Source of the DNA: Thermococcus chitonophagus
GTDB taxonomy: Archaea > Methanobacteriota_B > Thermococci > Thermococcales > Thermococcaceae
Length of the DNA: 64,000 nt
NCBI RefSeq assembly: GCF_002214605.1
Contig: NZ_CP015193.1
Span: 62,001-126,000, forward strand
Reading direction: 5' to 3'
Shown: piece after piece, positions 12,189 to 17,864 of the stretch
Position numbering within the stretch: the stretch's first letter is position 1
Layout: the number at the start of each line of letters is the position of its first letter
Position numbers and translations under genes: made by a program
The notes under the pieces: model-generated
The model's input: the letters and a program-made list of their open reading frames with translations, nothing else
Told to the model about the DNA's origin: nothing
Databases searched by the model: none

Positions 12189-12792
12189 AGATGAGTGGGG
12201 TGAATTCCTCGTCAAGCTCGCCCGAAGAGCAATAGAGGAGTACCTCAGAACCGGAAGGGAAATAAAGCCACCAGAAGATACGCCACCTGAGCTATGGGAG
12301 AAGATGGGGGTCTTCGTTACCCTGAACAGGCACGGAGTTCCGCCCCAAGCGGCCCTGAGAGGATGCATAGGCTTTCCCCTACCAATATATCCTTTGGTTA
12401 AGGCAACGATAAAAGCCGCAATATATGCAGCAGTGGATGACCCCAGGTTCCCTCCAGTAAAGCTGGAGGAGATGGACAACTTAACCGTGGAGGTCAGCGT
12501 TCTAACACCCCCAGAGCTTATAGAAGGCCCACCTCAGGAAAGGCCAAAGAAGATCAAGGTTGGAAGGGACGGACTAATAGTGGAGAAGGGCATATACTCC
12601 GGCTTACTATTACCCCAGGTTCCAGTAGAGTGGGGCTGGGATGAGGAGGAGTTTCTCGCGGAGACTTGTTGGAAGGCAGGACTACCTCCAGACTGCTGGC
12701 TCGATCCAGATACGAAGGTGTACAAGTTCACCGCAGAGATATTTGAGGAGGAATATCCAAGAGGGCCCGTGAGGAGGAAGCCTCTTGTTTAG
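12175..12792 (+). CDS. AMMECR1 family protein
   Basis: 205 aa. The family hallmark LRGCIGF is at about residues 60-66, and FTAEIFEEEYPRGPV closes the protein. This is the single-domain archaeal form of the human AMMECR1 family; its reaction is not established. It is often found near MEMO and radical-SAM genes in other genomes, but not here. The start overlaps the broken upstream gene by 14 bp, and the stop overlaps the convergent ABC gene by 4 bp. Confidence 0.9.
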   Translation: MYRIKDEWGEFLVKLARRAIEEYLRTGREIKPPEDTPPELWEKMGVFVTLNRHGVPPQAALRGCIGFPLPIYPLVKATIKAAIYAAVDDPRFPPVKLEEMDNLTVEVSVLTPPELIEGPPQERPKKIKVGRDGLIVEKGIYSGLLLPQVPVEWGWDEEEFLAETCWKAGLPPDCWLDPDTKVYKFTAEIFEEEYPRGPVRRKPLV

Positions 12793-13424
12793 ATAACGCC
12801 CATGCTATTTACAACATATTTTGGAGAGAACATTTTCAGGTCTATATTATAATCACAGAAATTCAAGGGCTCCCTAGAAGACATGAGCACAACTCCTTTT
12901 TCCTTTAGTATTTCCAAAATCTCGCCCATTAACTCATACTTGGATTCACTATCAATGGCAACCGCTGGATCATCAAGGATAAACAATTCCGCATCAACAA
13001 GGAGCGCCGCCGAGAGCTGGATTCTTCTCTTCATGCCTTGAGACATCCTTCCAAGCCTAAGTGTAGGATCAGGAACATTCACAATTTTAAGAGCCTCCAA
13101 AACTTCTTCTTTTCTAGCTATCCTACCATAAAGTGATGTTACAGCCCTTACATAATCCATCCCCGTGACTAGAGACGGAACGTTCACAGTTTCTGGAAGA
13201 AAGAATATCCTATCCCTGATTTTTTGAATTGGATTGCCATTATATGTTATACTTCCTTTTAGGGGCTTCAGAAATGTTGCCACCGTCTTTAAAAGGGTAG
13301 TTTTTCCTATCCCGTTTACACCATAAAAGTTGGCTACCTCTCCATTCTCAACTTCCAAATTGATGTTCCTCAGTACGGGAAGATCGCTAGAGTACCCAAC
13401 CCACAGGTCAATAAGCCTTAACAT
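12789..13424 (-). CDS. ABC transporter ATP-binding protein of the Cys-rich peptide operon
   Basis: 211 aa with Walker A GVNGIGKTTLL (about residues 38-48), signature RMSQGMKRRIQLS (motif MSQGM in place of LSGGQ), and Walker B ELFILDDPAVAID. It is small and single-domain like ABC-2-type exporters (CcmA/BcrA class), with loop segment FFLPETVNVPSLVTGMDYV. ATG 13424 has GGAGGTG six bases upstream and is preferred over a TTG at 13439. The start lies within the last 17 bp of the 157-aa membrane gene. It is the final gene of the leftward operon 15577-12789 and presumably energises the 390-aa and 83-aa membrane proteins. Confidence 0.88.
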   Translation of the reverse strand: MLRLIDLWVGYSSDLPVLRNINLEVENGEVANFYGVNGIGKTTLLKTVATFLKPLKGSITYNGNPIQKIRDRIFFLPETVNVPSLVTGMDYVRAVTSLYGRIARKEEVLEALKIVNVPDPTLRLGRMSQGMKRRIQLSAALLVDAELFILDDPAVAIDSESKYELMGEILEILKEKGVVLMSSREPLNFCDYNIDLKMFSPKYVVNSMGVI

Positions 13425-13881
13425 CTCTAGCACCTCCAATCACTGGGGATAGGGATATTACAAGGAAGGGGAGCGCTTCTAAGCCCATGCCAATCATTAT
13501 CAAGTACACTCCAATAAAAAGCGGAACTAATGATCCTGAAACTACTGCGACTACAGCCTTCCTTTTTGAAACATCCCCAATGGGAGTCCACATAAAAGCT
13601 GGTTCCCATAATCTAAGTTCTACCAGAACAGGTTTTCTAATAATCATGTATTGAAAGACTTCATGAAGAAGTACAGAAAGCTCAATTGGGACCAACAACT
13701 TTTCACATAGAAACCCGAGGAGACATTTAATGTCCATTTCCCATGTTACTCCACTCAATTTTCCTAGTCCAAGAAAGAGAGACAAAAATAGTAGAGCTAT
13801 AATGACAACCAAATAACCGAGATAGAGAGCCAGCACTCCAAAGAAGCCCAGTACCGAGTTCACTCTCACACTTATTACCAT
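13408..13881 (-). CDS. Membrane protein with degenerate M50-like (site-2 protease-like) motif
   Basis: 157 aa with about four hydrophobic segments (residues 11-38, 62-72, 107-131, 131-147). SVLLHEVFQY at residues 69-78 has the spacing of an HExxH zinc motif but with Gln in place of the second His (H73, E74, Q77). A late SLSPVIGGARD (143-152) sits where M50 proteases have N-x-x-P-x-x-x-L-D-G. It may be a catalytically altered protease, a maturation factor or simply a permease subunit. The start overlaps the upstream gene by 7 bp, and the stop overlaps the ATPase start by 17 bp. The M50 relation is my inference. Confidence 0.55.
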   Translation of the reverse strand: MVISVRVNSVLGFFGVLALYLGYLVVIIALLFLSLFLGLGKLSGVTWEMDIKCLLGFLCEKLLVPIELSVLLHEVFQYMIIRKPVLVELRLWEPAFMWTPIGDVSKRKAVVAVVSGSLVPLFIGVYLIMIGMGLEALPFLVISLSPVIGGARDVKAY

Positions 13882-15047
13882 CGGCTACACCTCCTAAAAA
13901 CCATTATATGGAGTCTATAAGCAAATGGAGAAGCTATTAAAAGAACAAAGGCCATTCTAGTATTCCTAAAGGCATTTAGATCTAAAGGAATCATCTGCAG
14001 AAGATAAAGGGAACCAAAGTACCACAAAAACTCCAAATTTCCCTCGATACTGGGCAGAAGCAGAGATAGCAATACCTTAAAAAACGCCAAGCTGACCACC
14101 AGATATGCGAAATTCCAAAGATCCAAGGTGCCGCTTATTACATAAAAGCCAACTACTGTGATAAGTGCCAGCAAATATTGAATCAAATCTTTGAACAACC
14201 TTTTTACGAGTCTCTCTGGATTAAGTGAGTGCAAGACTCTTAAATGAGAGTCGAGGTATGTATCGGGAACCATGAAAAGCATCCAGACTAGTGAAGCAAA
14301 AATCCTACCAACAGTACCTGCCCACCCAATCAGCTGGGAATATCTCAAGTACATTCCACTCTCGTAGAACCTCGGAGAGCACTGAACAACAAAACTTGTT
14401 GGAGAATGTTCAACCAGACAGCCAACAGAATTCAGGTACCTTACAATAAGGAAAAGGGTTATTGCAAAAAGGATTATAATTCCGCGATGGACTATGCCGA
14501 GGGTTGTTATGTATGTTCTCGCAATAAAGTACACATCAACGAGCTTCTCATAGAAGAACTTCCCAGCAAATACGATAAGTAGAACCGTCAAATATGAAAT
14601 GAGAAATCCAAAAGAGTTTTCGGTCACCACAACTGCCAAACCTACCAAGACCAGGAATATTTTTGCTATCGAACTGATTTCAATAACGAGCAGTGATATT
14701 ATACAAATTAAAGCAACAACGGGGATTTTTATAAGCAGGAGGAGAGAGACTAAAAAGGGCATCTGGCTAATTATCGTCGCCACAATTTTCAGTATATCAG
14801 TACTGAACGTCATGGGATGAACCATGAAGATGGCCCCAGATTTAATCACGTTCACGGTTATCGTCACCATAATGAGAATAAGGGAAAGCAGAAACAGCAA
14901 AAGAGGGGAAGGCTCCAAAGCGATCCTATACTCTTTTTTTGAATAGAGCGCCACTATCAGAAACCCAACAGCTGATATAAGGTACTTTGGATTAAATATG
15001 AGGACTTTCCCATGGTACTTTAAGATTTCAGCAAGTGCCTTAAGCAT
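13875..15047 (-). CDS. Polytopic membrane protein, probable permease of the Cys-rich peptide operon
   Basis: 390 aa with about ten transmembrane helices and short loops (for example VGFLIVALYSKKEY, LSLILIMVTITVNVI, VVALICIISLLVIEI, IIILFAITLFLIVRYLN). One larger outside loop holds two cysteines (SVGCLVEHSPTSFVVQCSPRFYESG, about residues 210-235). There is no sequence match I can name; the size and neighbourhood suggest an exporter permease. The ATG (15047-15045) shares one base with the TAA of the 83-aa gene (TAATG junction), indicating tight translational coupling. Confidence 0.6.
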   Translation of the reverse strand: MLKALAEILKYHGKVLIFNPKYLISAVGFLIVALYSKKEYRIALEPSPLLLFLLSLILIMVTITVNVIKSGAIFMVHPMTFSTDILKIVATIISQMPFLVSLLLLIKIPVVALICIISLLVIEISSIAKIFLVLVGLAVVVTENSFGFLISYLTVLLIVFAGKFFYEKLVDVYFIARTYITTLGIVHRGIIILFAITLFLIVRYLNSVGCLVEHSPTSFVVQCSPRFYESGMYLRYSQLIGWAGTVGRIFASLVWMLFMVPDTYLDSHLRVLHSLNPERLVKRLFKDLIQYLLALITVVGFYVISGTLDLWNFAYLVVSLAFFKVLLSLLLPSIEGNLEFLWYFGSLYLLQMIPLDLNAFRNTRMAFVLLIASPFAYRLHIMVFRRCSRW

Positions 15048-15298
15048 TATTCAGCCCTCCAAAGTGCCTTATGCGTAAAAACTAAGGCCAATCCTACTGC
15101 AATAAGCCATGAAATAGGAGTACCAGAAATTCTCAAGCTAAAATATCCTTCATACACTCGAAATATAGGCTCTAAGTTAATTCCCCACTCAACGTGTAAG
15201 AAGAAGGCCAGATGAAGCAATAATATATGGAACACAGGTGTCAAAATTGCAACTGTGAAGAAAAATATGGGGAGAAAGAGTCTCTCAAATTTATTCAT
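15047..15298 (-). CDS. Small two-helix membrane protein
   Basis: 83 aa: helix 1 about residues 8-34 (LPIFFFTVAILTPVFHILLLHLAFFLH), helix 2 about 60-76 (ISWLIAVGLALVFTH). The ATG is preceded by a strong GGGGGGTGAT SD. It lies 15 bp after the stop of the Cys-rich gene and is fused by a TAATG junction to the 390-aa gene. It has the look of an immunity-like or accessory membrane subunit, but no function can be shown. Confidence 0.6.
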   Translation of the reverse strand: MNKFERLFLPIFFFTVAILTPVFHILLLHLAFFLHVEWGINLEPIFRVYEGYFSLRISGTPISWLIAVGLALVFTHKALWRAE

Positions 15299-15313
15299 TT
15301 AATCACCCCCCAA

Positions 15314-15577
15314 TTATGAAGGGACTGGAGGGCCATGACGATTAGTAGCACATTTGCAGTAGCAGGATACTTCGAGGGTTGCCCACGAAACGTAAGTGTA
15401 AGGACCACAGGAGTACATATAGCCGCCACGATGTCCGCACTCTGAAGGACAGCGAGGACAATGGCGTTCTATACAATCCTTTTCTGCTAATCTTGCATGG
15501 ATATGGCCTGCCACCACAGCAACAAAAAGGACTAGTATCAATAGAGCCCCAGGGGCTATCCCATAAAACTTTTTCAT
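15314..15577 (-). CDS. Secreted or anchored cysteine-rich small protein (8 Cys)
   Basis: 87 aa from ATG 15577 (MKKFYGIAPGALLILVLFVAVVAG, a signal peptide or anchor), after GGGGGATGA. A TTG at 15592 is the alternative start. The mature region of about 60 residues has eight cysteines: C-x4-C-x2-C-x3-C, then C after GGYMYS, then a single C, CYC and KC close to the end (KDCIERHCPRCPSECG ... SCGPYTY ... VSCYCKCATNR). There is no CGP-CTERM or other sorting tail. Eight Cys in about 45 residues suggests a disulfide- or metal-stabilised peptide outside the cell. As first gene of a five-gene operon with an ABC ATPase and three membrane proteins, it may be the exported cargo. Confidence 0.6.
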   Translation of the reverse strand: MKKFYGIAPGALLILVLFVAVVAGHIHARLAEKDCIERHCPRCPSECGHRGGYMYSCGPYTYVSWATLEVSCYCKCATNRHGPPVPS

Positions 15578-15731
15578 TGTTTCATCCCCCAATATTAAGA
15601 CAATATTAATGATATAGCGTTGGCAGATAAATTTTTTGATGAAAGTGTTGTCAATTGTTTAATTAGGTTACATAATATAACGCCTTAAAGTGTTGATAAT
15701 TTGATCATCCAACTAAGTTAAAATTAAAGGC

Positions 15732-16565: not shown

Positions 16566-16631
16566 CGCACCACCCGAACCATTTACAAGCTGGGAGCTTT
16601 ATCATGCTTTCCAAATATTTTTGCATCGTGA

Positions 16632-16697
16632 CTGCAAATGTATTTATAAATACCTTTGCAGTAGTACTGCACAATTTTTATAAATATATTTTCAGTA
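16632..16697. promoter_or_regulatory. Two adjacent 30-33 bp palindromes, each centred on a TATA box
   Basis: Site 1 (16632-16661) has arms CTGCAAA/TTTGCAG plus an inner GTATTTATAAATAC and is nearly perfect. Site 2 (16665-16697) has arms TACTG/CAGTA around TTTTTATAAATATA. ACTGCA-type half-sites recur at 16631, 16666 and 16700. Both TATA cores lie inside the dyads, so a bound repressor would block TBP. The sites lie between nadC (-) and the ATPase gene (+, ATG 16707) and could control either or both. Confidence 0.6.
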
Positions 16698-16706
16698 TAA
16701 CTGCAC

Positions 16707-17864
16707 ATGCTCGAGTTGCAAAACCCATGGTGGTTTAACGAACCGGACAGGGACTGGGAGTTCTTTGAGAATCTTACATATAGAATTAAACCGAAATGGC
16801 TTAATGAAATATCTCTGAAACCCTTTTCCCTAAATTTCGTCATCGGCCCAAGGAGAGTTGGAAAAACACTTGGGGTAAAGCTCCTAATTAAGGAACTAGT
16901 GAAAAGGGTTGAAAATCGCTATGCAATCTTTTACTTTAGTTGCGATGTTCTGGAGGACTACAAAGACCTCCTTGATATCCTAACATCCTATTTAAAGCTG
17001 AAGAAAAAGAAAAGAGTAAAGACCGCTTTCATTTTCCTTGACGAGGTGACTCTCGTCGAAGACTGGTGGAGAGCGATAAAGTTCCTCATAGATAGGGGGG
17101 AAGTTGCTACTGATGTCATCACGGTAACGGGCTCAGTGGGGATAACTCTCGGACGACACTTTGAGACGTTTGGAGGGAGAAGAGGTCATGGAAAGACTAT
17201 TGAAGTCATGCCTCTAAGCTTCCATGACTACTATCGGATATTCTACGAGGAGTTCTTTCCCTCAAAAGGAGAAGACATATTTCACCAGTACCTTGAAACT
17301 GGAGGTTATCTAGCGTACCTTAACGGGACACTAAAACTCGAGGATCTCATAGGCTTTTTAAAAGCTGATTTGAAAACCCTCAACCGCTCTACAGAGCTAG
17401 CCAGGGATATAATAGGGGAGATAATAGAAAGAGCACCCTCTCCAATTTCTTTCAACACGATAGCAAAAGCCGTGGGCATTTCTCCTCACACCGTAAGGGA
17501 CTACATCGAGATACTTGAAGCCTTCCGCTTAATACTTCAAGTACAGTACCTGGGCCTTGATGGAAAGATATACCCGCGAAAGGAGAGAAAGATAGTGATA
17601 AGGGACCCGCTAATAGCAAAGGCGTTAGAAATGTGGTCCAGACGAGAGGTTGAGAGGGCCACACTCTATGAATGGTTAGTTCAGGAGCATCTCTACAGAA
17701 AATTCGGGGAAATTTTCTACTATAGGAACTCATATGAGATAGATGCAATAGCCAGGAATTTGAAAGTAGAAGTTAAGTCTGGAGAAAAAAGAGGGCGTTA
17801 TCCAAAGGATGTTAAGGTTCTAAAAGGATCGGAAATTCCAGAGTTTTTATACTGGCTTGACTAG
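16707..17864 (+). CDS. AAA-type ATPase with DUF4143-like C-terminal domain
   Basis: 385 aa. Walker A GPRRVGKT (about residues 47-54), Walker B FIFLDEV (about 109-115), sensor TGSVG (about 146). A winged-helix-like middle ([27 protein letters not shown]) precedes a C-terminal PD-(D/E)xK-like end ([21 protein letters not shown]). This is the common archaeal AAA_14/DUF4143 architecture of unknown role, often linked to mobile or stress functions. The promoter is inside palindromes at 16632-16697. The stop overlaps nadA by 4 bp convergently. Confidence 0.8.

Follow-up and report, generated by a model that had tools for sequence, protein, structure and literature searches.

Gene content and distribution of the cassette

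What does a hyperthermophilic archaeon do with a chain of five genes that encodes a small cysteine (Cys)-rich peptide, an ATP-binding cassette (ABC) ATPase and three membrane proteins, one of them protease-like? The question is raised by an operon on the minus strand of Thermococcus chitonophagus at 12789-15577 of the window, i.e. the whole stretch of 64,000 nucleotides analyzed here (contig NZ_CP015193.1, positions 62,001 to 126,000). The initial annotation had read it as a secreted-peptide system with the layout of the Bacillus YydFGHIJ genes. This reading is plausible and is now backed by a family of related operons, with two changes: the protease of the window is probably dead, and the peptide is elsewhere a domain of a membrane protein. 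At somewhat under even confidence, we favor the view that the operon is an accessory cassette. Its product would be a Cys-rich peptide, secreted and probably stabilized by disulfides, that most likely acts on related archaea as an archaeocin-like weapon; a mechanism is proposed below. Gene content, the existence of two forms, a motif difference in the protease-like protein, an altered ATPase, insertion and sharing as a unit are all read from the sequences.

All five leftward open reading frames (ORFs) described initially, together with their coordinates, were confirmed as intact members of an overlapping chain, with junctions from gene 1 to gene 5 of a 15-bp gap, a TAATG overlap, a 7-bp overlap and a 17-bp overlap (Table 1). 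Genes 1 to 4 had no significant match in Pfam or NCBIfam. The operon is not a chance arrangement, since homologous operons occur in other genomes and where the window and one of these, locus L012, have identical residues, the codons are mostly different synonymous ones (83 of 128 in the ATPase and 16 of 22 in the peptide core).

Homologues were sought with single sequences in 94 Thermococcales genomes and then with profiles in 115 genomes of the window's phylum. Single-sequence matches to the permease, the peptide and the M50-like protein were obtained in three, two and three of the 94 genomes, respectively, all belonging to the genus of the window. The relatives share the split form of the window, in which the peptide and a protein with two transmembrane (TM) segments are separate genes: L012 lies beside nadA-nadC in genome G011, as in the window, L013 is in the same genome and L014 in G007, the latter two adjoining genes recognized by eye as hydrogenase subunits. 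The profile of the M50-like protein gave seven weak matches, of which L115 and L117, spotted by eye, proved to be full operons of another form, with peptide and TM module fused. L116 contains stops, and L114, L118, L119 and L120 were rejected as relatives on account of an unrelated membrane protein of about 110 amino acids (aa); L017 (E 0.0085) was inspected and dropped as well. A six-row permease profile recovered nine loci in seven of the 115 genomes (E <1e-90), including a second locus, of the fused form, in the window's own genome (C1:951619), as well as three weak matches with internal stops (G101, G066 and G016; E 0.0006 to 0.023). With nine rows, the profile found one further locus (G287, E 2e-26) among 398 genomes from the phylum of G115, taken as Thermoproteota, and a ten-row profile run on 27 genomes of the order of G287 matched G287 only.

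The family amounts to ten loci in two phyla, four split (the window, L012, L013 and L014) and six fused. Joint inheritance of the gene set, which the initial annotation had proposed as a test, was borne out by all ten strong permease loci (E <1e-20), each of which carries an ATPase, an M50-like and a Cys-rich peptide gene, with parts broken in two of them. Carried by seven of the 115 genomes, the cassette is neither general in Thermococcales nor confined to them. A further search of 114 genomes returned seven loci in six genomes, all previously found and at identical coordinates, and no relative was found in another set of nine genomes, or in viral contigs, plasmids and phages with the queries used. 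PHROGs gave matches at E above 0.3 only and PADLOC ATPase-type matches only.

In a tree of the ATPases that included ten outside ABC ATPases, the ten loci formed one clade (support 100/99), within which the four split loci (98/96) and the six fused loci (100/99) each formed a clade of their own. The idea that the fused form is ancestral because the member from the second phylum is fused was discarded, as the tree places G287 inside the fused clade. The split is not polarized by the tree, and loss of the HExxH motif, judged by comparison with the M50 superfamily, would be the sole directional change.

Split and fused forms of the peptide

By Kyte-Doolittle analysis the 87-aa peptide of the window has a single hydrophobic segment ahead of eight Cys at residues 35-76, while two TM segments were predicted for the 83-aa product and polytopic topologies for the 390-aa and 157-aa products. 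The secretory or membrane leader and eight-Cys core initially described for gene 1 were both seen, and the core is conserved in relatives, with peptide homologues in L012 and L013 and a remnant in L014. In the five fused loci of Thermococcales (L141-L145) the corresponding product is a protein of 147-152 aa that consists of two TM segments, a third TM segment (TM3) and a Cys domain of the type CGVVCPRLACHGAMxSC...VCxC, and the gene order is fused peptide, permease (about 381 aa), M50 and ATPase. Like the window peptide (CxCxC), the fused peptides end in CxC-type motifs. No significant Pfam or NCBIfam match was obtained for the window peptide or the scanned fused peptides. A lipobox reading ('SIVAC') fits the five Thermococcales fused peptides by eye, and neither the split peptides nor those of G287.

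Cys counts are even in 13 of the 14 intact peptides (eight in the window, four in L012, six in each of the five fused Thermococcales peptides, and 6, 10, 6, 6, 6 and 6 in G287), the odd one being L013 with seven. Mostly even counts fit disulfides formed outside the cell, with the proviso that related sequences are not independent. Profile comparisons between the peptides aligned only seven and six columns, and it is their place in the operon, leader and Cys pattern that point to kinship of the split and fused peptides. The 83-aa protein may correspond to the module at the N terminus of the fused peptides. In HHalign it aligned with fused-protein residues 32-78 (P 0.0036 with five fused rows, 0.0097 with 11 rows), values that count little, since a low P is also reached from six columns, so that the proposal rests as much on topology and gene content. 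HHalign is weak at such depth, as the split permease profile matched the fused permease at 10% probability although the two are related according to the searches.

The M50-like protein

Both sequence features to which the initial annotation had drawn attention in the 157-aa product, HEVFQ and a late SPVIGGARD, are present, but Gln replaces the second zinc-binding His. In the column of the fused-form late Asp the window has Gly, and the Asp of SPVIGGARD follows four columns later. HExxQ is found in all four split loci, and HExxH in each of the seven M50 genes that the six fused loci contain, a division into the same two groups as the clades of the ATPase tree. The late Asp, which is the third zinc ligand, is present in all five Thermococcales fused rows and, by eye, in both G287 proteins. 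Among the other split loci the Asp of L012 comes five columns further on and the L013 tail has none, while L014 is truncated and was not counted.

The window protein had no M50 or DUF3267 match in the Pfam scan, and a sequence search of solved chains with the M50 profile was empty at E 1. Sub-threshold Pfam matches to M50 or DUF3267 (PF02163, PF11667) in three of the four scanned fused-form proteins independently support its assignment to M50. An AlphaFold2 model of the window protein, with a predicted local distance difference test (pLDDT) score of 84, matched best among solved structures an archaeal site-2 protease (3b4r_B, Z 8.3, root-mean-square deviation 3.4, 125 residues aligned), followed by SpoIVFB (8vjl_A, Z 6.6; 8vjm_A, 6.1) and then by unrelated entries at 4.3. 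The model is consistent with the transmembrane fold of site-2 proteases, subject to the caveat on helical models given below. Likeness to the M50/site-2 proteases, including DUF3267, lies in these matches and in the HExxH and late Asp of the fused relatives, while the HExxQ and the missing M50/DUF3267 profile match of the window protein set it apart. We regard it as probably a pseudoprotease that lacks the catalytic motif. The working YydH-like protease initially envisaged for the window is not supported: the window protein matches the fold, but only the fused relatives keep the motif.

The ABC ATPase and the putative permease

The annotation of the fifth gene as a small ABC ATPase was upheld by its Walker A sequence (GVNGIGKTT), its ABC signature (SQG region) and a match to PF00005 (8e-23). 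The family departs from other ABC ATPases at both hydrolysis residues. After the Walker B Asp all nine intact members, the window included, have a second Asp, versus the catalytic Glu in 80 of 80 controls, and the switch position is occupied, by eye, by Arg or Lys in all nine, versus a His within four columns in 65 of the 80. The controls were the best 80 of 522 ATPase-profile matches in genome contigs, at most 33% identical and fetched by Walker A patterns; the scanning patterns (NF[YH]G..., GKTTLLKT) are blind to ATPases of the fused form, whose sequences they do not fit. Changes of this kind at the two hydrolysis residues slow down the hydrolysis of ATP or stop it, and to judge from its residues the ATPase possibly acts as a switch driven by ATP and not as a fast pump.

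The nearest solved chain to the window ATPase is 1sgw_A (E 1.1e-66). This structure, PDB 1SGW, is a member of the ATPase family, with three differences over 205 aligned residues from the L014 ATPase, and presumably comes from Pyrococcus furiosus. Unlike the operon, it was solved as a lone protein under the generic name 'putative ABC transporter'.

For the 390-aa protein, searches of Pfam, NCBIfam and PHROGs yielded nothing significant, a result that agrees with the initial annotation. It is likely an ABC permease, judged from its place beside the ATPase. Its AlphaFold2 model is weak (pLDDT 66); at that confidence the best VIA-align match was CcmB of CcmABCD (8ce1_B, Z 9.5 over 170 residues, region 180-382; next match 5.8), while Foldseek gave nothing at E 0.001. 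Two CcmA models rank second and third among the NCBIfam matches of the window ATPase. Together these amount to a weak likeness to the CcmABCD heme exporter, limited by a permease model of low confidence and by CcmA matches that stay below the NCBIfam cut-offs.

Insertion, sharing and broken genes

In four of nine Pyrococcus genomes (G004, G005, G007 and G008) the site is empty, with nadC and AMMECR1 convergent and overlapping by 4-23 bp, while a 152-aa hydrophobic ORF fills the gap in G006, G009 and G010 (L122:2326-2784, L123:4495-4953 and L124:5554-6012). The same gap holds the operon in the window, and in G011 the operon follows nadC. By this comparison the window operon is an insertion at the nadC-AMMECR1 site. 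An AMMECR1-like ORF was also noted 1.6 kb from the fused cassette of G028 (L144:2584-3222), as AMMECR1 adjoins the split cassette of the window; this may be coincidence. Directly after the operon at L012 a second gene set, named by eye, follows (L012:7722-11098 in G011), with two proteins of 182 and 286 aa that begin in a signal-like way, a membrane protein of 263 aa, a protein of 138 aa and an ABC ATPase; the first three of these had no Pfam match.

Loci L143 and L144, whose genomes are assigned to separate genera, are 91.6% identical across a stretch of 2790 bp covering the operon, a comparison in which the L143 assembly is fragmented (75% complete) and a misplaced contig is possible. The similarity ends about 65 bp before the peptide gene, and the upstream flanks beyond that point do not match. 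In an exploratory split of this one pair, the ratio of non-synonymous to synonymous differences per site (pN/pS) was 1.79 for TM3 plus Cys domain (25.5 non-synonymous, 4.5 synonymous) versus 0.36 for the three remaining genes (Fisher p 0.0008), and 0.46 for the module (p 0.68). All four genes look constrained between L142 and L145, at ratios of non-synonymous to synonymous substitution rates (dN/dS) of 0.11-0.18.

Broken parts are found in two loci. The ATPase of L013 is frameshifted, while at L014 only a remnant of the peptide gene is left, marked by a deletion and a change of frame, and the second half of the M50-like gene is missing. The L012 peptide is shortened. The peptide genes at L014:4720-4850 and L012:4847-5032 both lack inner segments, with a TAATAATGTAT stretch at both junctions, which hints at recurrent deletion at one place.

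A peptide array in G287

The fused locus of G287 (L147) contains a permease, an ATPase, two M50 genes and six fused peptide genes, distributed over both strands. Two of the peptides, g6799 and g7757, are 83% identical in the module and 32% in the Cys part, and three of the six fit CxxxCxC...CxCxxC by eye. A long ORF with a HESIH motif of the M50/DUF3267 kind was recognized by eye near the array (L147:988-2523, plus strand). About 2.9 kb past the array, at L149:1007-4339, a PqqD-radical S-adenosylmethionine (SAM)-SPASM protein is followed by an ABC ATPase and by a protein weakly resembling an ABC-2 permease, which may be a separate peptide cluster.

Proposed mechanism and alternative explanations

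Topology, disulfides, cleavage, export, antagonism and the origin of the two-TM gene as a separated module are steps that we infer. The precursor would sit with its N terminus inside and its C terminus outside the cell, where the Cys part would fold. TM3 would be an N-in segment, the orientation cut by site-2 proteases. In the fused form an M50-type protease with HExxH would cut TM3 and free the C-terminal Cys peptide, while in the split form the peptide would take the secretory route by its own leader, the intramembrane cut would be unneeded, and the M50 protein would be kept as an inactive pseudoprotease, perhaps as escort or scaffold. The ATPase and the CcmB/ABC-2-like permease would move the peptide out of or away from the membrane, in export or self-protection, and the two-TM module could serve as anchor, immunity protein or both.

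Antagonism is favored by the patchy distribution, the sharing as a unit, the broken copies and the varied array. Several observations weigh against this proposal or parts of it. The L012 peptide has only four Cys and no segment above the hydrophobicity threshold. Identity among the five Thermococcales fused peptides is higher in the Cys part (82%) than in the module (58%), which would fit a conserved ligand as well as a weapon, and over all 15 peptide pairs of G287 the means are close (module 49%, Cys part 42%). No immunity gene was identified by homology. For homology of the two-TM protein and the fused module HHalign gave probabilities of 9% and 4%, and of its two controls the permease profile reached P 0.57 and the peptide profile P 0.0012 from six columns. 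Foldseek by itself gave a marginal match of the M50 model to 3b4r (E 0.057, prob 0.99), and Z scores under about 13 for helical models may, according to the tool's own warning, reflect a mere common arrangement. Gene split and motif loss coincide in a single event on one branch. The L143 contig ends at the downstream flank, and L144 still matches the final 50 bases there.

That the Cys domain is so well conserved across genera in the fused peptides of Thermococcales could reflect a conserved target or ligand and keeps in view a pheromone-like peptide, freed by the M50 protein or a signal peptidase, sensed by the same species and exported or reimported by the ABC unit. M50 proteases make pheromones in some bacteria (Eep). 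We nevertheless consider signaling unlikely, as no receptor or regulator gene was seen in the cassette, one genome carries six differing peptides (G287) and carriers are few among the 115 genomes. Slightly less likely still is a role in metal or cofactor handling, in which an extracellular CxC/CxxC peptide would bind a metal or a redox partner and be loaded or cleared by a CcmAB-like ABC unit. The CxC-rich ends of the peptides and the CcmB and CcmA matches would agree with it, while the low confidence of the permease model and the empty Foldseek result, peptide sequences and Cys spacings that differ between the groups, and the mostly even Cys counts argue against it.

Two further explanations, both improbable to about the same degree, concern the split form. 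The window M50 protein could still be active as a metalloprotease, with Gln77 or the late Asp serving as a ligand, and work as in the fused form, for which the HExxQY conserved in all four split loci as well as the nearby Asp in the window and in L012 might speak; the second His is absent from all four, the aligned late Asp from the three that are readable there, and L013 offers no Asp in its tail. The split operons could also be decaying remnants without function, as might be expected from broken genes in two of the four and from the shortened L012 peptide, an explanation at odds with the five intact, overlapping genes of the window and with shared residues held through synonymous change. The archaeocin-like cassette is accordingly the account we prefer. 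A broader proposal is possible but held with less confidence than this account. In it the operons of the two phyla, both of heat-loving archaea, would belong to a single family of exchangeable peptide cassettes that has no name so far. One gene split would have replaced intramembrane release and left a conserved pseudoprotease, beside an ATPase that is devoid of both hydrolysis residues and would act as a switch, and in one genome the cassette would have expanded to a six-peptide array with related anchors.

Features of the locus

Table 1. Coordinates of the operon and its elements in the window
Feature	Position	Strand	Remarks
Gene 1, Cys-rich peptide precursor, 87 aa	15314..15577	-	KKFYG leader; hydrophobic segment, residues 1-32; 8 Cys
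Cys-rich part of gene 1, C35 to C76, ends CxCxC	15350..15475	-	
Gene 2, two-TM protein, 83 aa	15047..15298	-	possibly equivalent to the fused-form N-terminal module
Gene 3, polytopic membrane protein, 390 aa, putative ABC permease	13875..15047	-	
Gene 4, M50 (site-2-protease-like) protein, 157 aa, probable pseudoprotease	13408..13881	-	
HEVFQY motif in gene 4	13648..13665	-	HEVFQ at 13651-13665, residues 73-77; Gln at 13651-13653
Gene 5, ABC ATPase, 211 aa from the ATG used	12789..13424	-	PF00005 8e-23; TTG start at 13439 in the ORF list
Walker B 'DD', Asp152 replacing the catalytic Glu	12969..12974	-	
Arg184 at the place of the switch His (SSRE)	12873..12875	-	
Intergenic stretch 5' of gene 1, presumed promoter	15578..15731	-	AT-rich TATA-like run aaaaaatttatc; ggggg before ATG; sequence only

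The promoter scan covered sigma-70 sites only, and the promoter in Table 1 is presumed from the letters themselves. In a repeat search around the operon no repeats paired up to flank it. Three 31-nt direct repeats with ACTGCA-type parts and a spacing of 34-35 were noted at 16608-16707, between nadC and a divergent AAA ATPase gene, and may be operator boxes.

Relation to known systems and biological meaning

In halocin C8, a haloarchaeal archaeocin, the immunity part and the Cys-rich peptide are the N- and C-terminal portions, respectively, of one precursor. The fused form resembles this layout, although the peptides had no significant Pfam or NCBIfam match. A literature search, which did not extend to Makarova et al. 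2019 (mBio), found no description of the cassette; that paper reportedly deals with archaeal antimicrobial peptides and polymorphic toxins and is judged the likeliest to have listed such genes. The archaeocins described before were, according to one account, sulfolobicins and halocins only, to which the paper by its title adds haloarchaeal-type lanthipeptides (PMC10105419). Another hypervariable module of Thermococcales is built on Ig-domain proteins, and the terms ABC and M50 are absent from the main text of its description (PMC8416519).

In the Bacillus subtilis yydFGHIJ operon the peptide YydF is thought to be processed by the putative membrane protease YydH, and the ABC pair YydIJ was postulated to confer immunity, despite which LiaIH is the main resistance factor against YydF (PMC7026026). 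The window resembles this operon in layout by its small peptide gene, its relative of a membrane protease and its two-protein ABC unit. It differs in that the peptide is Cys-rich, the protease motif is lost and no radical SAM epimerase accompanies the precursor. The YydFGHIJ-like layout of the initial annotation can be retained for peptide, ABC ATPase and putative permease but not for the protease, as the combination of an active-site motif and an ABC transporter seen in epipeptide clusters occurs here in the fused relatives and not in the window. The absence of a radical SAM gene, which the same annotation had pointed out, extends at the Pfam cut-off to all 15 genes scanned, i.e. the five of the operon and ten neighbors (8.9-20.7 kb). 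nadC reached E 0.05 with a radical SAM profile, below the cut-off, and the AMMECR1 neighbor matches the NCBIfam AmmeMemoRadiSam protein A, which is itself not a radical SAM protein and is present at empty sites too.

The family provides archaeocin candidates in hyperthermophiles whose peptide would be detectable by mass. With one split and one fused copy, the genome of the window represents a natural experiment on whether a site-2-type protease frees the peptide and on the role of a conserved pseudoprotease, while an ATPase in which both hydrolysis residues are changed, and of which one member has been solved (1SGW), poses a direct biochemical question on the mechanism of the transporter.

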